From the NCBI GenBank assembly GCA_028819575.1, contig JAPPLB010000023.1, forward strand, positions 1-32,140: a stretch of DNA of 32,140 nt, written 5' to 3'. Below the pieces are notes generated by a model. It searched no databases. It was not told where the DNA came from and saw nothing but the letters and a program-made list of their open reading frames with translations. Origin of the DNA: Bryobacterales bacterium (lineage in GTDB: Bacteria > Acidobacteriota > Terriglobia > Bryobacterales > UBA6623). The translations under genes and the position numbers were made by a program. Positions 2,431 to 12,677 of this stretch are shown one piece after another (the first letter of the stretch is position 1; every line of letters begins with the position of its first letter).

Positions 2431-3411
2431 ATGAGTGAGACTCCATCAGTAGAAAAAGTCGTCTATCTGCTTACTCCGCGGGGCTTCTGCGCGGGCGTCG
2501 TGCGGGCAATCGACATTGTCGAACTGGCCCTCGAGGTTTATGGACCTCCGATTTACGTGCGGCGCGAGATCGTTCACAACAGGCACGTCGTTGAGGACTT
2601 GTCCGGACGCGGGGCGGTTTTCGTCGAAGAACTCGACGAGGTGCCGGTCAACTCCCGTGTGGTCTATAGCGCCCACGGAGTGGCGCCGACGGTCAGGGAG
2701 GATGCCAAGCGGCGGAACTTGCAAGTCGTCGACGCCACCTGTCCATTGGTAACCAAGGTTCACCGAGAGGCGATCCAGTTCGCTTCCACCAACGGAACCA
2801 TCTTGTTGATCGGGCATCGCGGCAGCGATGAAGTCATCGGCACGATGGGCCAAGCGCCCCGTCATACGATCGTGATTTCGTCTCTCGAGGAGGCCGAGTC
2901 CGTTTCGGTTCCCGATCCGGACAATGTTTTCTACCTGACGCAGACAACGCTCAGCCTGGACGAAACGGAGCAGGTAGTTTCGGTCCTCAAGAGGCGCTTT
3001 CCCAAGATTCAGGGTCCGCCCGCGCAGGACATCTGTTACGCCACCGAGAACCGGCAACAAGCGGTCAAGCATGTCGCGCCGTGGTGTGACCTCATGCTGG
3101 TCGTTGGGTCGCAGAACAGCTCGAATTCGCAAAGGCTTGTCGAAGTCGGCAAAAATGCAGGTATGCCGGGCTACCTTGTCGACAATGAGCGAGATATCCA
3201 GGACGAATGGCTCACTGGCGCACGGAGTGTAGCAGTGACGGCCGGGGCGTCGGCCCCTGAGATGCTCGTACAGCAGGTTGTGGCCTATCTTTGGCGGCGC
3301 GGCTTCACCCGCGTCGAAGAAGTCGAGGCGGTGGAGGAAGACGTAGTCTTCCCGCTGCCCGCCGAGTTGGCCGCCCACGAATCCCTCCTTACGACCATCG
3401 CGAACGCCTGA
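2431..3411 (+). CDS. ispH: 4-hydroxy-3-methylbut-2-enyl diphosphate reductase
   Basis: IspH catalyses the last step of the MEP pathway, reductive dehydration of HMBPP to IPP and DMAPP, with a [4Fe-4S] cluster in the cytosol. The 326-residue length is typical. The three cluster cysteines are visible: C20 in RGFCAGV, C104 in DATCPLV and C202 in DICYATENRQ. Also present are the substrate-binding histidines H49, H82 (AHGV) and H129 (IGHRG), the catalytic glutamate E134 in GSDEVIGT, TQTTLS, GSQNSSNS and the TAGASAPE tail. The ATG at 2431 opens the conserved N-terminus; its Shine-Dalgarno is weak. Its product feeds the squalene genes hpnCDE 3 kb downstream, although a 550-bp gap separates them. Confidence 0.97.
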   Translation: MSETPSVEKVVYLLTPRGFCAGVVRAIDIVELALEVYGPPIYVRREIVHNRHVVEDLSGRGAVFVEELDEVPVNSRVVYSAHGVAPTVREDAKRRNLQVVDATCPLVTKVHREAIQFASTNGTILLIGHRGSDEVIGTMGQAPRHTIVISSLEEAESVSVPDPDNVFYLTQTTLSLDETEQVVSVLKRRFPKIQGPPAQDICYATENRQQAVKHVAPWCDLMLVVGSQNSSNSQRLVEVGKNAGMPGYLVDNERDIQDEWLTGARSVAVTAGASAPEMLVQQVVAYLWRRGFTRVEEVEAVEEDVVFPLPAELAAHESLLTTIANA

Positions 3412-3743: not shown

Positions 3744-3833
3744 GTGGTTACGAAGTTCGGAATCGGCATTCTTGGCGCAGGGCAAGGGGCAGCGCCTTTT
3801 CCGGTCGGTTGTCTGAGGGACAGGCGGGCCTGA
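3744..3833 (+). pseudogene. Possible remnant of a Gfo/Idh/MocA oxidoreductase N-terminus
   Basis: From a GTG at 3744 the frame reads a short peptide containing KFGIGILGAGQGAA, the beta-strand plus GxGxxG start of NAD-binding Gfo/Idh/MocA dehydrogenases. It stops at a TGA (3831-3833) after 29 residues. The same frame, after the stop, leads into the GTG at 3909 ahead of the first MDR gene. It could be the leftover start of a deleted dehydrogenase gene, or a chance reading. No further part of such a protein is found in this gap. Confidence 0.3.
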
Positions 3834-3968
3834 GCCAGCGACGATGGACACACCCGATTCCCTTGCGTCGAGACAAGGCAGCAACTGACGCCGCAGTGGG
3901 AGATTTCCGTGGGTGCCAGCGGCTTGGAAACACCGTCAACCAATAGCCGCAACATATCCGCAACAGCG

Positions 3969-5024
3969 ATGATGCGGGCAGCAGTATACACGGGACAACA
4001 ACGAGTCACCCTTGAGGAGATTCCCATTCCAGAGATCGGTCCCGGCGAAATCCTCGTACGCGTTGAAACCTGCGGCATCTGCCATACGGACCTCAAGAAA
4101 ATCGAGCATGATCTCTTGCCGCCGCCTCGAGTCTACGGACATGAGACGGCCGGCACTGTCGTTCGGATCGGTGATGAAGTCACCCGGTTTGCCGAAGGTA
4201 ATCGCGTCTGCCTGTTCCACCACATTCCATGTCTCGATTGCTTCTATTGCGAACACCAGGACTACGCCCAATGCCCCAAGTACAAGAAAGTGGGTGTCAC
4301 TGCCGGTTTCGAACCGGCCGGTGGCGGGTTTGCGCAATACGTGCGCGTCATGGATTGGATCGTTCAGCGCGGCGTGGTTCGGATCCCCGATCCGGTGTCG
4401 TTCGAGCGCGCCAGTTTCGTCGAGCCGGTCAACACTTGTTTGAAAGCGCTTGACAAACTGAGCGTCCAGGGCGATGAAACGATCCTGATCCTGGGTCAGG
4501 GACCCATCGGCCTGCTGTTTACGGCGCTTGCCCGCAGGCTCGGGGTCAGATCGGTTTGTGCGACCGACTTCCTCGAGTCGCGCATGGAAATGGCGGAAAG
4601 GCTGGGAGCCGATCACGTTTGGAATGGAGCGCAATCCGACTGGATGGACCAAATGCGGCGCCTGACAGCCGGCCGCGGGGCTGATATAGTGATCGTAGCC
4701 GCCTCCGCGCCGGGAATCGTTACCGAAGCGATCACGGCATCGCGCCCTGGCGCTCGGATCATGCTGTTTGCCCAGACGGCGCCGGACGAGGTGTTCGAGT
4801 TGAGAGGTGCGGATCTGTGCGCTGCGGACCGAACTCTGTTGGGATCTTACAGCGCATCTCTCGACCTACAGGAGAAATCGGCCGAAATCGTCTGGTCTGA
4901 GGATTTCCCCGTCGAGGAACTCATCTCGCATCGCCTCCCCCTCGATGATCTGTATGAAGGAATCAAGCTTGCCCGCAAGCCCACGGCCGGTTCGCTCAAG
5001 CTGATGGTATGCCCGCAGTGGTGA
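3969..5024 (+). CDS. Zinc-dependent MDR alcohol/polyol dehydrogenase (first of a pair)
   Basis: A 351-residue medium-chain dehydrogenase/reductase, expected to oxidise an alcohol or polyol with NAD(P). Catalytic zinc ligands are visible as C35 (CGICHTD), H58-E59 (GHE) and E152. The structural zinc lobe has C88, C91, C94 and C102. The Rossmann motif GQGPIG lies near residues 176-181. Homologues start near MMRAAVYTG, so the ATG at 3969 is used. A GTG at 3909 with GGGAG (3898-3902) at 6 nt would add 20 residues without resemblance to the family and cannot be excluded. The next dehydrogenase starts 20 nt after the stop, or overlaps it if its upstream start is used, so the two are co-transcribed and lead into hpnCDE. 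The substrate is unknown; sorbitol-, threonine- and alcohol-type enzymes all share these motifs. Confidence 0.9.
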   Translation: MMRAAVYTGQQRVTLEEIPIPEIGPGEILVRVETCGICHTDLKKIEHDLLPPPRVYGHETAGTVVRIGDEVTRFAEGNRVCLFHHIPCLDCFYCEHQDYAQCPKYKKVGVTAGFEPAGGGFAQYVRVMDWIVQRGVVRIPDPVSFERASFVEPVNTCLKALDKLSVQGDETILILGQGPIGLLFTALARRLGVRSVCATDFLESRMEMAERLGADHVWNGAQSDWMDQMRRLTAGRGADIVIVAASAPGIVTEAITASRPGARIMLFAQTAPDEVFELRGADLCAADRTLLGSYSASLDLQEKSAEIVWSEDFPVEELISHRLPLDDLYEGIKLARKPTAGSLKLMVCPQW

Positions 5025-5044
5025 ATCGAACCGTGAAGGATACG

Positions 5045-6112
5045 ATGCTGGCCGCGATGCTCTACGGCAAGGAGCGTCTCCGCCTCGAGCCGGTGGCCGT
5101 GCCACAGGTGGGCCCGGACGAAATCCTTGTCAAAGTGCAAGTGGCCCTGACCTGCGGAACGGACCTCAAGGTCTTCCGCCGCGGCTACCACGCTCGCATG
5201 ATCCGCCCGCCCGCCGTGTTGGGCCACGAGTTGGCAGGAGATATCGTCAGCGTCGGGTCGGAGGTGACGACGTTCCAGCCGGGACAGCGGGTCGTCGCCG
5301 CCAATTCCGCTCCTTGCGGCAACTGCTTCCACTGCCGGCATGACAGAGAGAACCTGTGCGAGGATTTGCTCTTCAACAACGGGGCGTACGCCGAGTACGT
5401 ACGGATTCCGGGCCGTATCGTCGCTCGGAACACTTACGAAATCCCGGACCACATCGGCTACCGCGAAGCCGCGATGGTTGAATCCCTTGCCTGTGTCTTG
5501 AAGGGCTTGGAGGATACCAATCTACGCGCCGGCGATACCATCTCGATCATCGGCTTGGGGCCGATCGGGATGATGTTCATCCGATTGGCGAGCTTAGCCG
5601 GAGCTCGCGTGATCGCCGTCGGCCGTCGGCAAACGCAGTTGGATCGCGCCGCCAGCATGGGTGCTCAAGAGCTGATCCTGACCGGCGGCTCAGAGATGCC
5701 CGTCGAGGAAGTTCGCAGCCTGACGGACGCAAAGCGCGGCTGCGACGTTGTGATCGAGGCGGTCGGTTCACCGCAGACCTGGAAGGGAGCGGTCGACATG
5801 GTTCGGAGCGGTGGCACGGTCAACTTCTTCGGAGGGTGCCCCAGCGGCAGTCACGTGCCCCTCGATACATCCCGCGTGCACTACTCGGAGATCACACTCA
5901 AGTCGAGCTTTCATCACACACCGAAATACATTCGACGGGCGCTTGAGATCGTCGCGGAAGGAGAGATCAGCGCGGAGGACTTTGTGATCAATGAAGCTCC
6001 TCTCACGGACTTGCTTTCGGTGTTCCGTCACATGATGAGTCATAACGGGCACCTTAAGACCGCGATCCTTCCCTGGCCCAGTCGAACGCAGAGAATGTCC
6101 AGGAACCTGTAG
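5045..6112 (+). CDS. Zinc-dependent MDR alcohol/polyol dehydrogenase (second of a pair)
   Basis: A 355-residue MDR enzyme, related to but clearly diverged from its upstream neighbour. Catalytic zinc ligands are C37 (CGTDLK), H61-E62 (GHE) and E146. The structural zinc site is C91, C94, C97 and C105 (CGNCFHCRHDRENLC). The nucleotide-binding motif is GLGPIG (170-175). The ATG at 5045 has AAGGA at 5036-5040 and begins at the usual family position; an ATG at 5009 would overlap the previous gene by 16 nt. hpnC follows within 50 nt. Two tandem MDR genes may form a hetero-oligomer or do successive oxidations; neither is shown by the sequence. A link to isoprenoid lipid modification is only a context inference. 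Confidence 0.9.
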   Translation: MLAAMLYGKERLRLEPVAVPQVGPDEILVKVQVALTCGTDLKVFRRGYHARMIRPPAVLGHELAGDIVSVGSEVTTFQPGQRVVAANSAPCGNCFHCRHDRENLCEDLLFNNGAYAEYVRIPGRIVARNTYEIPDHIGYREAAMVESLACVLKGLEDTNLRAGDTISIIGLGPIGMMFIRLASLAGARVIAVGRRQTQLDRAASMGAQELILTGGSEMPVEEVRSLTDAKRGCDVVIEAVGSPQTWKGAVDMVRSGGTVNFFGGCPSGSHVPLDTSRVHYSEITLKSSFHHTPKYIRRALEIVAEGEISAEDFVINEAPLTDLLSVFRHMMSHNGHLKTAILPWPSRTQRMSRNL

Positions 6113-6159
6113 CAAGACGAGCCCGGCCGGCTCCGATCCGTAGGCGATTGAGGAATGTC

Positions 6160-7122
6160 GTGAATCGCTTCCTTCAACCCGTCGCATTCGTCAAGAAGTT
6201 CGGGACTGACAGTCCAGTGTGGCCGCTCGATACATCGCTCAGCTACACACGTTGGCTCGCAACGCATCACTACGAGAATTTCCACGTAGCAAGCTTCCTG
6301 CTGCCCAAGAAGCTTCAACAACACTTCTTCAATGTCTATGCATTTTGCCGTTGGGCAGACGACCTCGGGGACGAGCTCGGCGACACGGCGCAGAGCCTCG
6401 AACTACTGGATTGGTGGCGGCGAGGAGTCGAAAAAATGTATGCCGGCGAGCCCTGCCACCCGGTCTTCATCGCGTTGGCGGAAAGCGTTTCGGAATACCG
6501 CCTTCCGAAGCAGCTCTTTCTCGATCTGATCCACGCTTTCGAGCAGGACCAGCGCGTACATCGCTACGAGACGTTCGACGAGTTGCTTGGCTATTGCCGC
6601 TACTCGGCCAACCCTGTGGGGCGACTGGTGCTGCGGCTATGGGGCTACTCCGACACGGAGCGAGACCGCCTCTCCGACGCTACTTGCACGGCGTTGCAAC
6701 TCACCAATTTCTGGCAGGACGTTGCTCGTGATTTCCGCATCGGGCGGGTATACCTGCCACTCGAGGTGATGTGGCAGCACGGTTATTCCGTCGACTTGCT
6801 CACCGAAGATTTGCGCGACGGAAAGGCCCGAACCGCCGGCAGGGCGGTTCTGCGCGATCTGGTCCATAGAACACGGGAGTTGTTCAACGAAGGAGCACAA
6901 TTGTTGGGAAAGGTTGAGCGTCGGCTTTCGGTCGATCTCAACCTCTTCACGGAGGGAGGATTAGCTGTCTTGGCGAAGATTCACGCTCAAGACTACGACA
7001 CGATTCGGCAGCGTCCGAAGCTCGGAAAGCTCGATCGCGCCGGGCTGATGGTGCGATCGACCTTCAGGTGGCTCTTTCGCCGGACGCGACCTTGCCGGCA
7101 GGCGCAGCATGCTTTCCGTTAG
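6160..7122 (+). CDS. hpnC: Squalene synthase HpnC (hydroxysqualene-forming step)
   Basis: A 320-residue trans-isoprenyl diphosphate synthase of the squalene/phytoene synthase family. In bacteria HpnD makes presqualene diphosphate from two farnesyl diphosphates, HpnC converts it to hydroxysqualene, and HpnE reduces that to squalene. The first Asp-rich motif is RWADDLGDE (D67, D68) and the second is NFWQDVARD (183-191) followed by IGRVYLP. An opening of the type YTRWLATHHYENF and a C-terminal FR-rich tail fit HpnC. The GTG at 6160 is preceded by GAGGA (6150-6154) at 5 nt; a TTG at 6148 is less likely. It overlaps hpnD by 14 nt, which suggests translational coupling. Confidence 0.93.
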   Translation: MNRFLQPVAFVKKFGTDSPVWPLDTSLSYTRWLATHHYENFHVASFLLPKKLQQHFFNVYAFCRWADDLGDELGDTAQSLELLDWWRRGVEKMYAGEPCHPVFIALAESVSEYRLPKQLFLDLIHAFEQDQRVHRYETFDELLGYCRYSANPVGRLVLRLWGYSDTERDRLSDATCTALQLTNFWQDVARDFRIGRVYLPLEVMWQHGYSVDLLTEDLRDGKARTAGRAVLRDLVHRTRELFNEGAQLLGKVERRLSVDLNLFTEGGLAVLAKIHAQDYDTIRQRPKLGKLDRAGLMVRSTFRWLFRRTRPCRQAQHAFR

Positions 7123-7990
7123 AGATTCCTTTGTCCATTGCAAGCGCGTGGCCCGCGCCCGCGCCCGCAATTTCTTCTATTCGTTCCTGCTGCTGCCTCC
7201 AGATGAAAAAGAGGCGATGTGCGCGATCTATGCCTTCATGCGCCACGCCGACGACATCAGCGACGAAACCTCACTCAGACCAGAGGATCGTCTCGCAGGA
7301 CTACAACGATGGAAGAGCGCTCTGCAGCAAGCTCTCGAAGGGCAATACGGCGACGACCCGATACTGCCCGCTTTTCATCACACCGTAAAACGCTACGAGA
7401 TCCCGCCGCAGTATTTCTTTGAGCTGATCAAAGGCGTTACTAGTGACCTTGACACCAAGCGCTACCGAACGTTCGATGACCTTTACCGTTATTGCTATCG
7501 GGTAGCATCGGTCGTAGGCATGACGACCATCCATATCTTTGGCTACGAATCCGATGAGGCGCTCGAGCTCGCGGAAAAATGCGGCATCGCGTTCCAACTC
7601 ACGAACATTCTTCGGGACATCCGCGAAGACGCCGAAATCGGCCGCGTCTACCTTCCGGAAGAAGAACTAGCGCAATATGACCTCAAGTCCGACGATCTGT
7701 TGGCGAACCGTCGTGGTGAACGATTTCGTGAGTTCATGGAGTTCCAGTTCAATCGCGCCAATGACTATTACCGTCAAGCCGCACCGATTCTGCGAATGGT
7801 GCGCCCCCCCTGTCGCGCTGCTCTCTGGACGATGGTTTCCATCTACCACCGCCTGTTGCAACGGATTCGGGAGACCGACTTCAACGTCTTCGACCGGCGA
7901 GCGCGCTTGAGCGATGGCGAGAAGTTGTGGATCGCTCTGCGAGCTTGCAAGCTGCGTTACTTCGGAGGAGCGCCGCCATTCCCCGCGTAA
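7109..7990 (+). CDS. hpnD: Presqualene diphosphate synthase HpnD
   Basis: A 293-residue squalene/phytoene synthase-family enzyme, assigned to the first condensation of two farnesyl diphosphates. The Asp-rich motifs are RHADDISDE (D48, D49, D52) and NILRDIRED (166-174) followed by AEIGRVYLP; the SFLLLP segment near residue 25 is typical. HpnD and HpnC share a fold; this copy groups with HpnD by its shorter N-terminus (FFYSFLLLPPDEKEAMCAIYAF-type region) and its place between hpnC and hpnE. Its ATG at 7109 lies inside the end of hpnC, and its end overlaps the start region of hpnE. Confidence 0.93.
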   Translation: MLSVRDSFVHCKRVARARARNFFYSFLLLPPDEKEAMCAIYAFMRHADDISDETSLRPEDRLAGLQRWKSALQQALEGQYGDDPILPAFHHTVKRYEIPPQYFFELIKGVTSDLDTKRYRTFDDLYRYCYRVASVVGMTTIHIFGYESDEALELAEKCGIAFQLTNILRDIREDAEIGRVYLPEEELAQYDLKSDDLLANRRGERFREFMEFQFNRANDYYRQAAPILRMVRPPCRAALWTMVSIYHRLLQRIRETDFNVFDRRARLSDGEKLWIALRACKLRYFGGAPPFPA

Positions 7991-9363
7991 AAGTCGTCGG
8001 CGGCGGTCTGGCCGGCCTTTCTGCCGCTGTCGCACTGGGCTCGGTCGGTTTTCAGGTCGACCTTCATGAGTCACGCCCTTTTCTCGGGGGACGTGCGACG
8101 TCTTTTCCGCTTGACCCTTCCGATCCCGACTCGGAGCGGATCGACAACTGCCAGCATGTGCTGCTGCGGTGTTTTACGAATCTATTGGATTTCTATGAGC
8201 GGATCGGTGTGGCAGACAAGATCACGTTCTACGATCGATTCCATTACGTCCGCCCCGGCGGAGCCGTCGATGTACTCAAGCGCGGCTGGCTGCCGGCGCC
8301 GCTGCACCTTGCCGGATCGTTGCTGCATTTCAGAGCGCTCGACTTGAGCGACAAGTGGAGTGTCATCCGCGGTTTGCTGGCGCTATGGCGTGACGCCGAC
8401 CGTACCGACCTCGAAGCGATCACGATGGGCAGTTGGCTGCGGTCAGAGCGAGCGACGGACACCTCCTATCAGCGTTTCTGGCGGCCGATTCTCGTCAGCG
8501 CCCTCAACGAAGAACCCGATCGGGCCGCGGCAAGCTGGGCTTTCCAAGTTTTTCTCGATGGCATGATGGCGGACAGTACGAGCTATGAGATGGGCGTGCC
8601 CTCGGTACCGCTCTCTGAGCTTTATTCCAGCGGGAAACGTCTGGCGCCGAGCGTGCGGACCCACACTCGTTCCACGATTGAGCGGATCGATCCAGGGAGT
8701 AACGAAGCGGATTTCTATATTTGCGCTTTGCCGTTCGAACGCGCTGCGAGCGTCCTCCCTGATCTTGACTTGCGGCTCGACAGGTTCGAGCATTCACCGA
8801 TCACGGGTATTCACCTCTGGTACGATCGTCCGATCACCGAGTTACCTCACGCAGTTCTTCTGGACCGGACCTTGCAGTGGATCTTCAGAAAGTCCGACAC
8901 GTACGTGCAGGCTGTCGTCAGCGCCTCTCGTTCGTTGACGGGGCTTGCACGCGGCCGGATCATCGAGCTGGCATGCAAAGAGATCCGTGAGTTCTTTCCG
9001 GCTGCGAAAACGGCCAAGCTCATGCGGTCTCATGTCATCAAAGAAGTACGAGCAACCTACTCGTCGCGTCCCGGGCTACAGGCTGATCGCCCGGGCTCAG
9101 AGACCAAGCATCGCAACCTGTTCCTCGCCGGCGACTGGACCAACACGGGTTGGCCTCCAACGATGGAGGGAGCCGTCCGCAGCGGCTACCGTGCGGCGGA
9201 ATGTGTATGCCGAACTGCGGGCTTTGATGCGGCCTTCTTGAGAAAAAGACCCGACACATCGATTAACACAACCACGGCCACCAGGGAAGCTGCCGCTCCC
9301 AGGCGATTCCGAGTCAAGTCACCGAGCGGCCGGTTGGAGCAACAACTTTACGACACAAGGTGA
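7927..9363 (+). CDS. hpnE: Hydroxysqualene dehydroxylase HpnE (FAD-dependent)
   Basis: A 478-residue FAD-dependent amine-oxidase/phytoene-desaturase-type protein, last of the three squalene enzymes. The dinucleotide-binding motif VVGGGLAGLSAA is followed by an acidic residue in DLHESRPFLGGRA. The C-terminal FAD motif is LFLAGDWTNTGWPPTMEGAVRSG, near residues 400-420. The start is uncertain. The GTG at 7927 adds 17 unusual residues before IPRVKVVGGG. A GGAGG at 7963-7967 lies about 10 nt before ATT (7978), where homologues begin, so a rare ATT start is possible. The last 45 residues after the FAD motif are basic, Thr/Ala/Arg-rich and not part of the usual core. It ends the MDR-MDR-hpnCDE operon, before a hairpin. 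Confidence 0.9.
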   Translation: MDRSASLQAALLRRSAAIPRVKVVGGGLAGLSAAVALGSVGFQVDLHESRPFLGGRATSFPLDPSDPDSERIDNCQHVLLRCFTNLLDFYERIGVADKITFYDRFHYVRPGGAVDVLKRGWLPAPLHLAGSLLHFRALDLSDKWSVIRGLLALWRDADRTDLEAITMGSWLRSERATDTSYQRFWRPILVSALNEEPDRAAASWAFQVFLDGMMADSTSYEMGVPSVPLSELYSSGKRLAPSVRTHTRSTIERIDPGSNEADFYICALPFERAASVLPDLDLRLDRFEHSPITGIHLWYDRPITELPHAVLLDRTLQWIFRKSDTYVQAVVSASRSLTGLARGRIIELACKEIREFFPAAKTAKLMRSHVIKEVRATYSSRPGLQADRPGSETKHRNLFLAGDWTNTGWPPTMEGAVRSGYRAAECVCRTAGFDAAFLRKRPDTSINTTTATREAAAPRRFRVKSPSGRLEQQLYDTR

Positions 9364-9680: not shown

Positions 9681-12677
9681 CTACAGGCTCTTGAGATAGG
9701 CGAGTAAATCCGCCATGCCCTGTACGCTGATGCCCTGCTCGATGTCCTCAGGCATAGGAGACACGCTTAGCGACCTCAGCGACGTGATGTTGGACCGCCG
9801 GATTGTGTCTTCCTCACCCTTGGCTCGACGGAGCGTGACCGTCTCTGGTGTTTCCGCCGCCATGACGCCCGTAATGGAGCGCCCGTCGTTGGTTTCAAGC
9901 AGATACTCTTCGTACCCCGCCTCGATGCTCTCGTTCGGAATCAGGATGTCTGTCATTAGTGTTTCCCTGTTTCGGATGACGACGCTGAGCAGGTCGGGAC
10001 CGACCTCCGACCCCATGTCACCCACCCTGTGGCACTCCGAGCAGACATCCCGGAAGACCTCCCTGCCACTTTCTACGTTTCCTTCATACGCGAGAGCGGG
10101 CCGGTATTTCTCGTAGACGGCTTGCCTCTCGTTCCGCGCGGATTCGCCGAAAAGCGCTTCGGCGCGCGCTCGAATCTCTTCGTCCGCGTGCCGCAAAAGC
10201 TGACGTTGTCGGCCCCGACTAAGTGACCAGGGCTGGACCGTTTCGTTCTCAACCGCGTCAAGCAGTGCGGAGATGCCCTGCGTGTGACCGACGAGCTCTC
10301 CGATGATCGCAGTGCGCACCGGGCCCGTGTAGGAGCGCCAGTCCTCAAGCAGCGATTCGGTAGCATCGGGACCTCGGACAGCGGACAGCGTTTCAACCGC
10401 CGCCACCTGCAATCCTTCCGAGTGGGAGGGCCCGAGTAGAGCTGCGATGTCGGTTGTGTACTGTCCGGATCGATCGAGTCCCAAAGTCCGGATTGCAAAG
10501 ATCCGCCCTGCTACTGGGGCAAGCGAGTCCGCCGCGATCGAGGCGGCCCTTGCGAGGATCGAGTCTACTTGAGGTTTTGCCTCCACGTCGATGCGGAGGA
10601 GCGCGTCCAGTGCGCTGGCGCGGACTGTCTCGCCAGGGTTCGAGAGGAGCGCCAACAATCCCCTCTGGGTAGCCGCGAGTCGAGGGCGCTCTTTCTCACC
10701 CTGACCGAAACCTTCTCTGAGGCCCTCCAAGACGGCTTGCCGCCACCAGTCGCCACGGACCGTGGAAGACCAGCGTACCGCCTCGACGAATTTTGCAGCT
10801 TGCACGTCTTGCTGCCTAGTCCCCGCTATGGAAGCCAAGCCGTGCAGCATGGCCCTCTTGCCTTCCGACTCCTTGCCCAGCAAATCGGTTCGCCGCAAGA
10901 GGCTGGCCAACCAGGCATCCGAATTGTCCGCCGCCGCGCTCAGCGCCGCCATCCGGAACCAGGGGCTCTCGATGTTGTCAGCCAACAATTGCTCGAGCAC
11001 ACGCCGGGCGCTTTGGTCCTGGAAACTGCCCAGGATGCACGCCGCCTGAAGCTGAACCTTCGCGCTCTTGTCCTGTGCCAAACGCAGAGCTTCCCGCCTC
11101 AACTCTTCCGCCGTCAGCAGGCCTTCCGCAAGCTGGAGGGCATGCTCACGGACGTTGGGTTCGGGGTCGAGCAGCGCATCCCGAACGAGGTCAGAAGAAA
11201 GTGACCCAAGCCCATCAAGCGTCCACAGGGCGTGCAGCTTGACTACCGCATTGTTCTCCCGTGCCAGTTCCTGCAGCGCCGACTCTACCAAGCGGTCACT
11301 GCGCTCAACCAGCAGCCGCTGCGCAGTCGTTCGCCACCAGCCGTTCGGATGACTCAGAGCATCGACGAGTTCCTCGGATGACGCTTCGTCCAGCTTTGGA
11401 GGCTCGTACGGTTCGGAACCCTCGTATACGATCCGATAGATCCGCCCCGCCTGAGCAGGAGGCTCAAACTCGATGTGGTCGACAATCTCCTTGGGCGCAT
11501 ACTCAGGATGCTCGACGACAGGCCGGTGATAGTCGACGACATACAACGCTCCATCGGGACCGGTTGTCGTGAATACCGGCCGGAACCAACTATCCGTCGA
11601 AGCCAGAAACTCGAGTCCCTCGTGTGCGCGTTTCGCGGTAAAGGTCGGGCCATCCGGCACGAGAACATCACGGTGCACGACATTATGAACCGGATCGCAT
11701 GTGAACGAAGTATGCTCATAGCCTGCCGGGAAGAGACCGCCTGAGTAGATAGAGATGCCCGAGGCGGACGTGAAGCGGCCGTGCTGCGAGTCGTGTATGT
11801 ACTCGGGTTCCGTCGTGATCTGAAACAGCGCCGCAGCCTTTTCATGGTCAGAGACCGACTTCATCGCCTCGGGGTTCACAAGGTAAGGATTCCGCGCCAA
11901 GTACTTCTCCTGGACGACGACGTGCCTCAAATGGTCGTTGTTCCAAACCGTAAAGCGGTTTCCCCAGGCATCGAACGCGTTGCCGAATTGCGAGTTCCCA
12001 GCCACTCGCTCTACGAGACTGTCATCAGGTCGAAAGCGGATGTCCCGCGAACGCGCATCGACGGATTTTGTTTCGGTTCGCCCCGGAAAACGGATGGGAC
12101 TGCCACGGTCGCCGAACTCTTTGGCGAAGCGGACCGGGTTAGGAACGCGAGTGTAGGCGACGTAGATCCAATTGTCGATCCCGTAAAGCGGACCGTTCAC
12201 TCGTAGCTGTGGATTGGTCGCCGCGAAACCAGTGAGGACGACGCTGCGTTCATCCGCCACTCCGTCCGCATCGGTGTCACTGAGAAAGAGGATGTCCGGC
12301 GCCGCCGTTACGAGAACACCGTCTTTCCAGGGCATCACGCCGTTCGGCAGCGACAGGCCTTCAGCAAAGATCGAGACCTGTTCGTAGCGTCCATCACCGT
12401 CGCGGTCTTCCAGTCTCTTGACTCGTCCCTGTGGTTCGGGATGGTACGGATAGTCTCGCATCTCGACCACGTAAAGACGGCCCTGCGCATCGAAAGCCAT
12501 CGCCACCGGATCGATCACATCCGGCTCCGCTGCGACCAACTCGATGCGGAAGCTTTCAGGCAACGCAAACGTCGACAGAGATTCTTCCGGCGAATGCGGT
12601 GGGCTTTGTACGCTTCCACATCCGAGTGTCAGCAGCAGCGGTATCAAAACAAGAGATAGAGTGCAGAGCAACTTCAT
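9681..12677 (-). CDS. Haem-binding HEAT-repeat lipoprotein (PVC-type dehydrogenase/cytochrome)
   Basis: A 998-residue exported lipoprotein. Residues 1-19 are a signal peptide ending in a lipobox, LTLGC, with C20 as the lipidated cysteine. Residues from about 35 to 430 form a PVC-type membrane-bound dehydrogenase domain, a beta-propeller related to soluble glucose dehydrogenases (FRIELVAAEPDVIDPVAMAFDAQGR, GPDGALYVVDYHR). Alpha-helical HEAT-like repeats occupy roughly 440-850. The C-terminus is a haem domain with CSECH (C879, C882, H883) followed by GPDLLSVVIRNRETLMTDIL and a distal Met-containing stretch. Such proteins are abundant in Planctomycetes, Verrucomicrobia and Acidobacteria and are thought to oxidise carbohydrates with electron transfer to a cytochrome; the substrate is unknown. 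It is divergent from the DNA glycosylase and probably monocistronic. Confidence 0.9.
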   Translation of the reverse strand: MKLLCTLSLVLIPLLLTLGCGSVQSPPHSPEESLSTFALPESFRIELVAAEPDVIDPVAMAFDAQGRLYVVEMRDYPYHPEPQGRVKRLEDRDGDGRYEQVSIFAEGLSLPNGVMPWKDGVLVTAAPDILFLSDTDADGVADERSVVLTGFAATNPQLRVNGPLYGIDNWIYVAYTRVPNPVRFAKEFGDRGSPIRFPGRTETKSVDARSRDIRFRPDDSLVERVAGNSQFGNAFDAWGNRFTVWNNDHLRHVVVQEKYLARNPYLVNPEAMKSVSDHEKAAALFQITTEPEYIHDSQHGRFTSASGISIYSGGLFPAGYEHTSFTCDPVHNVVHRDVLVPDGPTFTAKRAHEGLEFLASTDSWFRPVFTTTGPDGALYVVDYHRPVVEHPEYAPKEIVDHIEFEPPAQAGRIYRIVYEGSEPYEPPKLDEASSEELVDALSHPNGWWRTTAQRLLVERSDRLVESALQELARENNAVVKLHALWTLDGLGSLSSDLVRDALLDPEPNVREHALQLAEGLLTAEELRREALRLAQDKSAKVQLQAACILGSFQDQSARRVLEQLLADNIESPWFRMAALSAAADNSDAWLASLLRRTDLLGKESEGKRAMLHGLASIAGTRQQDVQAAKFVEAVRWSSTVRGDWWRQAVLEGLREGFGQGEKERPRLAATQRGLLALLSNPGETVRASALDALLRIDVEAKPQVDSILARAASIAADSLAPVAGRIFAIRTLGLDRSGQYTTDIAALLGPSHSEGLQVAAVETLSAVRGPDATESLLEDWRSYTGPVRTAIIGELVGHTQGISALLDAVENETVQPWSLSRGRQRQLLRHADEEIRARAEALFGESARNERQAVYEKYRPALAYEGNVESGREVFRDVCSECHRVGDMGSEVGPDLLSVVIRNRETLMTDILIPNESIEAGYEEYLLETNDGRSITGVMAAETPETVTLRRAKGEEDTIRRSNITSLRSLSVSPMPEDIEQGISVQGMADLLAYLKSL

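Follow-up and report, generated by a model that had tools for sequence, protein, structure and literature searches.

Gene clusters for the synthesis of bacteriohopanepolyols (BHPs) in Acidobacteria were described in PMC5462960 (2017, Sinninghe Damste et al.), the available text of which includes a cluster A with the order ug2-hpnC-hpnD-hpnE and a cluster C with the order hpnA-hpnG-ug1. According to the same text, the product of ug2, of about 350 residues, frequently carries the annotation zinc-binding alcohol dehydrogenase, and the functions of both ug1 and ug2 are left open. The presence of a zinc dehydrogenase gene before hpnC (ug2) in Acidobacteria is already published in that part of the study. 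The accessible portion of a later study (PMC12583986, 2025) considers the enzyme for the conversion of ribosylhopane to bacteriohopanetetrol not established and finds, near alphaproteobacterial hpn clusters, no obvious candidate except hpnA, hpnB, hpnL and hpnM. Here, we analyzed a stretch of 32,140 nucleotides from a Bryobacterales bacterium (assembly GCA_028819575.1, contig JAPPLB010000023.1; hereafter the window), in which two zinc-dependent medium-chain dehydrogenase/reductase (MDR) genes, MDR1 and MDR2, stand before the squalene genes hpnC, hpnD and hpnE. Judged by gene order, the window operon is a deletion derivative of a full operon for hopanoids, which are sterol-like lipids of bacteria. 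MDR1 and MDR2 are old members of that operon and, by their usual position, candidates for a hopanoid step without a known enzyme. A ug2-like zinc dehydrogenase precedes hpnC-hpnD-hpnE in the window, as expected of an acidobacterial BHP operon. From gene position alone, we infer that MDR1 corresponds to ug1 and MDR2 to ug2 as both are placed in the published text available.

The window spans an entire contig (C80) of a draft genome of 5.37 Mb (G000; 200 contigs, 98.7% complete). MDR1 (3969..5024) and MDR2 (5045..6112) both start with ATG and contain the Pfam domains ADH_N (PF08240) and ADH_zinc_N (PF00107) above cut-off, with an NAD-type motif in MDR1 and an NADP-type motif in MDR2. They are followed by hpnC, encoding the squalene synthase HpnC (6160..7122, start GTG), hpnD, encoding presqualene diphosphate synthase (7109..7990), and hpnE, encoding hydroxysqualene dehydroxylase (7927..9363). 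The three products reach their curated NCBIfam scores, with 335 bits for TIGR03464 (cut-off 250.45), 278.6 bits for TIGR03465, which is exactly its curated cut-off, and 434 bits for TIGR03467 (cut-off 283.05). All five genes lie on the + strand. A sequence-only reading of this DNA had reported two zinc MDR dehydrogenases adjoining hpnCDE, with gaps of 20, 47 and -14 bases (MDR1-MDR2, MDR2-hpnC and hpnC-hpnD) and an overlap of hpnE with hpnD; the open reading frames (ORFs), the Pfam and NCBIfam families and all spacings were confirmed. The hpnE ORF opens at the GTG at 7927, and its true start is uncertain. The gene ispH (lytB; 2431..3411, + strand; TIGR00216 at 314.6 bits, cut-off 187.85), responsible for the last step of the methylerythritol phosphate isoprenoid pathway, lies upstream at a distance of 557 bases from MDR1.

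Gene order and co-occurrence across Acidobacteria

The order MDR-MDR-hpnC-hpnD-hpnE is conserved among relatives. In a sample of 297 genomes from the phylum, 119 besides the window's match the hpnC model at an E-value of 1e-40 or lower, and the surroundings of hpnC (at most 13 kb) were retrieved from 89 of these. The 89 comprise all 83 others over the curated hpnC cut-off and 6 below it, with 30 below it left out. In the window's taxonomic order, hpnC is present in 79 of 81 genomes, and 20 loci of family f2 were added to 2 from the first round. MDR2 lies directly 5' of hpnC in all of these 22 f2 loci, which we take to be subdivision 3, and MDR1 lies 5' of MDR2 in 21 of them, with the remaining locus beginning at a contig edge. 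Directly 5' of MDR1, hpnG was recognized in 18 of the 22. The full order in near relatives is ispH-shc-hpnH-hpnA-hpnG-MDR1-MDR2-hpnC-hpnD(-hpnE), where shc encodes squalene-hopene cyclase (SHC), and many of the full operons have ispH upstream of shc. In the full operon L131, shc, hpnH and hpnA score over their cut-offs, as does shc of L132; HpnG of L131 scores 124.8 bits, below its cut-off of 187.1, yet is the best NCBIfam match there. A chance or strain-specific linkage of MDR genes and hpnC is ruled out by the conserved order across relatives. The sequence-only reading would have given up a shared pathway if the linkage existed in this strain only, with the pair in sugar-use operons elsewhere; the orthologues do not behave in this way.

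A similar picture emerges from named records. Among the best 80 named loci found with MDR1 (the scan held more), MDR1 and MDR2 are side by side in 49, including three in which ORF starts overlap too much for a strict adjacency rule. Other hpn genes accompany the pair in 46 of the 49, and only hpnG is clear in three (L169, L189 and L211). The rest of the 80 consists of 28 loci that are cyanobacterial or verrucomicrobial by title, 2 that are truncated at the end and 1 (L218) that is acidobacterial and lacks MDR2; none of the 28 contains a hopanoid cluster. The closest MDR1 among named records stems from Bryobacterales bacterium APA_bin_29 (L167) and is 97% identical to MDR1 of the window.

Split operons are informative about which genes stay together. 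In genus g168 of the window's family (f1), no MDR match was found in 11 hpnC loci (L133-L143), with L137 having only about 300 bases upstream of hpnC and only hpnE resolved by ORF choice in L141. Both g168 hpnG loci fetched (L144, L145) contain hpnG-MDR1-MDR2 together. In class-mates of family f3 (genera g5 and g10), ispH-shc-hpnH-hpnA-hpnG-MDR1 occupies one place (L257-L259, L263) and MDR2-hpnCDE a separate place (L045, L053, L058, L068). The persistence of hpnG-MDR1-MDR2 or shc-hpnH-hpnA-hpnG-MDR1 in split operons counts for a side-chain role of the dehydrogenases. An identification of the class-mates as Holophagaceae was dropped, given that the available text of PMC5462960 reports no hpnC, hpnD or hpnE in that subdivision. 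Three loci of family f29 (L090, L091, L266) and L191 show ispH-hpnA-MDR1-MDR2-hpnD with neither hpnC nor hpnE beside it, and shc adjoins this unit in L090 and L191. Distant tandem pairs of MDR1-like and MDR2-like genes are found outside of hopanoid clusters (L252, L253, L255, L256), and some of the genomes concerned (G078, G132) have no cyclase match. A reading of the pair as generic sugar-use genes was considered and rejected; a scan of 10 neighbors in 5 loci, four of them with distant MDR-like pairs or singles and the fifth with the orthologous pair (G066), gave no pathway in common.

Presence across the phylum sample was called at 489 bits or more for MDR1 and 459 bits or more for MDR2, at score gaps chosen after viewing the lists, and at the curated cut-off for hpnC, E 1e-30 for SHC and E 1e-60 for HpnH. 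MDR1 orthologues occur in 46 of the 297 genomes (next match 294 bits) and MDR2 orthologues in 48 (next match 377.5 bits), with MDR2 present in every one of the 46 MDR1 genomes. SHC is found in 42 of the 46 (Fisher 8e-26) and HpnH in 41; these counts ignore shared ancestry, and Fisher p-values overstate the evidence because the sampled genomes are related. The MDR1 genomes without SHC are the window's, G221 and the incomplete G211 and G282, and the same four together with G113 are without HpnH. Among hpnC genomes, MDR1 is present in 31 of 41 with SHC versus 2 of 43 without. MDR1 tracks the cyclase and hpnH more than hpnC alone.

Loss of cyclase genes and state of the remaining operon

The absence of a nearby cyclase, remarked upon in the sequence-only reading, extends to the whole draft genome, in which the hopene cyclase model has no match. 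A hidden cyclase was considered and rejected. The three matches to PF13243 in the genome are stretches of at most about 100 residues in proteins that do not match otherwise, and PF13249 matches nothing genome-wide at E 0.001, with a marginal 26.8 bits (cut-off 26.2) in one PF13243-matching protein. The searches for shc and hpnG covered every one of the 18 genomes of family f1, and the same 18 were part of the 81 genomes searched for hpnH. Neither shc nor hpnH has a match in the window's genus (G000, the sister species G317 and the congener G315) or in G323 of genus g171. The hpnG search gave matches in 16 of the 18 genomes, every one below the curated cut-off, and none in G000 or G317. At the window locus, to which the search for this gene was limited together with the other loci, hpnA was not found. 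Two g168 drafts also show absences that may be gaps, with no shc or hpnH match in G321 and no hpnH and only a weak cyclase match in G327. In G315 and G323, hpnG is kept directly 5' of MDR1, and shc, hpnH and hpnA are not there.

The spacer between ispH and MDR1 contains a decayed 3' end of hpnG (3776..3931, + strand). Over 52 residues, the remnant is 46% identical to HpnG of G315 (E=6e-6 in a search of the whole window), and stop codons lie upstream in its frame. Of 500 shuffled sequences made, 480 gave a match and none of the 480 reached its score. Among eight HpnG queries, only that of G315 is clearly significant at the remnant; two others touch it at E 0.016 and 0.05, which is no better than the chance matches that another query gives elsewhere (E 0.018 and 0.036). 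The spacer is 90% identical between G000 and G317, and the remnant is recognizable in G000. Missing cyclase genes could in principle reflect an assembly gap instead of a loss, as the genome is a 200-contig draft and its congeners are also drafts. Such a gap is highly improbable, however, as in G000, G317 and G315 the sequence runs unbroken through this place, which ispH directly precedes, the hpnG remnant lies in the spacer, and none of the three congeneric genomes matches shc or hpnH.

The block shc-hpnH-hpnA was apparently lost from the operon at least twice and independently, with hpnCDE and the MDR pair kept both times, because a grouping of G323 with the window's genus is rejected on the operon tree. 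In a tree of five concatenated operon proteins (16 loci), G323 groups with G307, which has the full operon, at 100% ultrafast bootstrap and lies outside the window's genus; forcing G323 to join that genus is rejected by the approximately unbiased test (p=7e-7). Counting two losses presupposes that the history of the operon genes is that of the species and that neither G307 nor G325 reacquired the block. G221 (family f40, listed as 100% complete) carries the MDR pair and hpnCDE at separate places (L247, L062), has no shc or hpnH match and is possibly a third cyclase loss. In G323, a phosphodiesterase/PafA-like alkaline phosphatase gene (L129:6999-8534, - strand; 464.8 bits, cut-off 650) lies between ispH and hpnG, in the place of shc-hpnH-hpnA in relatives.

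Selection on the remaining genes was estimated from the ratio of nonsynonymous to synonymous substitution rates (omega) between G000 and G317; synonymous divergence is saturated between G000 and G315. Omega is 0.18 for MDR1 (P=3e-7 against neutrality; including 20 upstream codons), 0.24 for hpnC, 0.11 for hpnD, 0.27 for hpnE, 0.10 for ispH and 0.46 for MDR2 (P=0.064; p=0.038 versus the pooled rest). Amino-acid changes in MDR2 polarized with G315 (n=13) fall on G317 in eight cases and on G000 in two, with three undecided. The changes in G317 include P173A at a column conserved in 27 of 28 sequences, and V240L, H290P and A299T at three columns that show no variation among all 28. In this sister species, MDR2 seems to be in decay, and substitutions at invariant columns are as expected if its pathway is gone. 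Mean tree distances to f2 were compared between the window's genus (G000, G315) and hopanoid-pathway relatives (G307, G325). They amount to 1.156 and 1.048 versus 1.058 and 1.187 for MDR1, and to 0.870 and 0.859 versus 0.904 and 0.998 for MDR2. In the window, the MDR copies look intact and hpnCDE look to be still in use, probably making squalene. The MDR pair of this organism might be either a recently stranded relic or serve another substrate.

An HpnC search of G000 at E 1e-40 matched solely hpnC and hpnD of the window. Elsewhere in the genome, a CrtI/CrtO-like flavin adenine dinucleotide enzyme (G000:C176:52072-53643; L267), for which a C30 carotenoid route was considered, scores below named cut-offs (139.6 against 238.1 bits and 318.6 against 1000 bits). 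Convergent with hpnE, a gene at 9681-12677 (- strand) encodes a PVC-type heme-binding protein with DUF7133, HEAT repeats and a C-terminal cytochrome c domain.

Possible functions of the dehydrogenase pair

Both dehydrogenases were compared in alignments of 24 MDR1 and 28 MDR2 sequences. Four structural cysteines are invariant in each protein, as are C35, H58, E59 and E152 in MDR1 (24/24) and C37, H61, E62 and E146 in MDR2 (28/28), which presumably act as zinc ligands as in the wider family. An acidic residue ending strand beta 2 is the usual sign of NAD use, and basic residues without an acid are the usual sign of NADP use. At this position, MDR1 has D in 22 of 24 sequences and E in 2, and MDR2 has R (27/28) or H (1/28) at column 195 and R or K at column 194 (27/28), with no acidic residue at the end of the strand. 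Confident AlphaFold models, with a predicted local distance difference test (pLDDT) of 92.3 for MDR1 and 91.9 for MDR2, are nearest to folds of sorbitol or ketose (polyol), butanediol and threonine dehydrogenases, with 20-32% identity and TM-scores of about 0.80-0.90 among the best 50 matches of each structure search. Many dehydrogenases of these types use polyols and sugars, and the modeled polyol/sugar-type fold would suit the aldose-like end of ribosylhopane. Neither protein reaches the cut-off of the named MDR equivalogs in NCBIfam (threonine dehydrogenase, scyllo-inosose dehydrogenase, galactitol-1-phosphate dehydrogenase and others), with best scores of 165.7 bits for MDR1 (cut-off 380) and 163.8 bits for MDR2 (cut-off 450).

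We suggest that the MDR pair most likely serves the hopanoid side chain after HpnG, because the pair follows hpnG in relatives and tracks the cyclase and hpnH over hpnC alone. Comparison with relatives shows that the ancestral operon was ispH-shc-hpnH-hpnA-hpnG-MDR1-MDR2-hpnC-hpnD-hpnE and that the loss of the cyclase, adenosylhopane synthase and hpnA from it and the decay of hpnG left MDR1-MDR2-hpnCDE. The decay of hpnG probably came second, as the congener G315 keeps hpnG. In hopanoid-making relatives, MDR1 and MDR2 might act after HpnG on the ribose-derived side chain. Most likely, the NADP-type MDR2 would reduce ribosylhopane, in its open-chain aldehyde form, to bacteriohopanetetrol, and the NAD-type MDR1 might carry out a further redox reaction on that polyol chain, either an oxidation or a reduction. 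This reduction by the pair is our best guess. A decayed hopanoid operon, with a pair acting on the ribose-derived side chain, is the overall explanation that we put forward with somewhat less than even confidence. More tentatively, MDR1 and MDR2 could be the missing acidobacterial enzymes from ribosylhopane to bacteriohopanetetrol, and the window's genus a natural knock-out that has stopped making the substrate. The sequence-only reading had offered an isoprenoid alcohol, the polyol side chain of a hopanoid or a redox partner for squalene synthesis. The polyol side chain emerges as the best supported of the three by position after hpnG and by tracking of the cyclase and hpnH, which supports that interpretation in part, and the redox partner is weakened by the absence of MDR1 from 41 of the 43 hpnC genomes without a cyclase. 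In the hopanoid literature searched by titles and abstract starts, with few subscription journals, no work names these dehydrogenases as a ribosylhopane reductase. A sponge host of the window's genus was a guess from a record name, on which nothing was seen among the papers listed.

Several observations weigh against a side-chain role. The chief doubt comes from the two lineages in which the MDR genes have survived the cyclase. Both the window and G315 have an intact pair, with rates within the range of G307 and G325, and MDR1 is under purifying selection between G000 and G317; together, this hints at a role that does not depend on the cyclase. In many class-mates, the companions of MDR2 are hpnCDE and not hpnG. 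G066 (family f40), with cyclase and hpnH, has the MDR pair away from hpn genes and near a proline-dehydrogenase-domain gene. MDR1 is absent from 33 of 75 SHC genomes, and the pair therefore cannot be a universal bacteriohopanetetrol enzyme. Furthermore, the available text of PMC5462960 proposes HpnA for the step from ribosylhopane to bacteriohopanetetrol and cites Chloracidobacterium thermophilum as reported to make bacteriohopanetetrol without ug2.

Other explanations were also weighed. A role in squalene formation, either as a source of reductant for HpnE or in handling a prenyl alcohol or aldehyde by-product, would explain why MDR1-MDR2-hpnCDE remains after cyclase loss, and it fits the tight spacing with hpnCDE, the MDR2-hpnCDE unit in class-mates and the retention in two cyclase-less lineages. 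We regard this role as rather improbable, since almost all hpnC genomes without a cyclase do without MDR1, the g168 hpnC loci show no MDR match (one with its short upstream sequence), and the pair of f29 genus g43 adjoins hpnD with no hpnC or hpnE there. In addition, HpnC, HpnD and HpnE of Z. mobilis and R. palustris worked when expressed in E. coli according to the available text of PMC5462960. After cyclase loss, the pair might instead have been co-opted for another substrate, for instance a polyol or aldehyde, derived from squalene or not, and the five-gene remnant would then be a new pathway. The same genes were kept in two apparently independent losses, motifs are intact at rates within the range of hopanoid-pathway relatives, and hpnG is also retained in G315 and G323. 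Nevertheless, we consider co-option unlikely, as no newly inserted gene was found in the remnant operon within the window and MDR2 of G317, with its eight polarized changes including H290P, V240L and A299T at invariant columns, looks like decay. The pair could also catalyze another side-chain reaction, either the epimerization of a hydroxyl by oxidation and re-reduction (NAD-type and NADP-type) or the turnover of ribosylhopane. The opposite cofactor motifs and the strict co-occurrence of the two enzymes among MDR1 genomes would agree with this, but what the described pathway lacks is precisely a ribosylhopane reductase, and we see such a reaction as an improbable alternative.

Bacteriohopanetetrol and its relatives are widely used as molecular fossils. 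The consistently paired and conserved dehydrogenases directly after hpnG offer a defined target for knock-outs in Acidobacteria that can be cultured. From the window's genus, one can see how a hopanoid operon decays and which genes go with the cyclase.

Clusters A and C in the available text of PMC5462960 resemble the window in the zinc alcohol dehydrogenase before hpnC (ug2) and include a gene without known function after hpnA-hpnG (ug1). Unlike these clusters, the window has the two MDR genes adjacent to each other, its operon has lost shc, hpnH, hpnA and hpnG, and the genome has no cyclase match. In the subdivision 3 genomes of that text, cluster A occurs without ug2, in contrast to the f2 loci analyzed here, all of which have MDR2 before hpnC. 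The HpnCDE squalene pathway is represented in the window by all three enzymes in the order C-D-E, but here hpnCDE are preceded by two dehydrogenases and not followed by shc. Zinc MDRs of the sorbitol, ketose, L-threonine and scyllo-inosose types are alike in fold and in the positions of presumed catalytic zinc ligands and structural cysteines, whereas MDR1 and MDR2 are 20-32% identical to solved structures among the best 50 matches of each search, have distinct conserved motifs and reach no equivalog cut-off. Finally, ribosylhopane was reportedly reduced to bacteriohopanetetrol in a cell-free system of Methylobacterium organophilum by Bodlenner in 2015, which is the same reaction as the one proposed here for the MDR pair.

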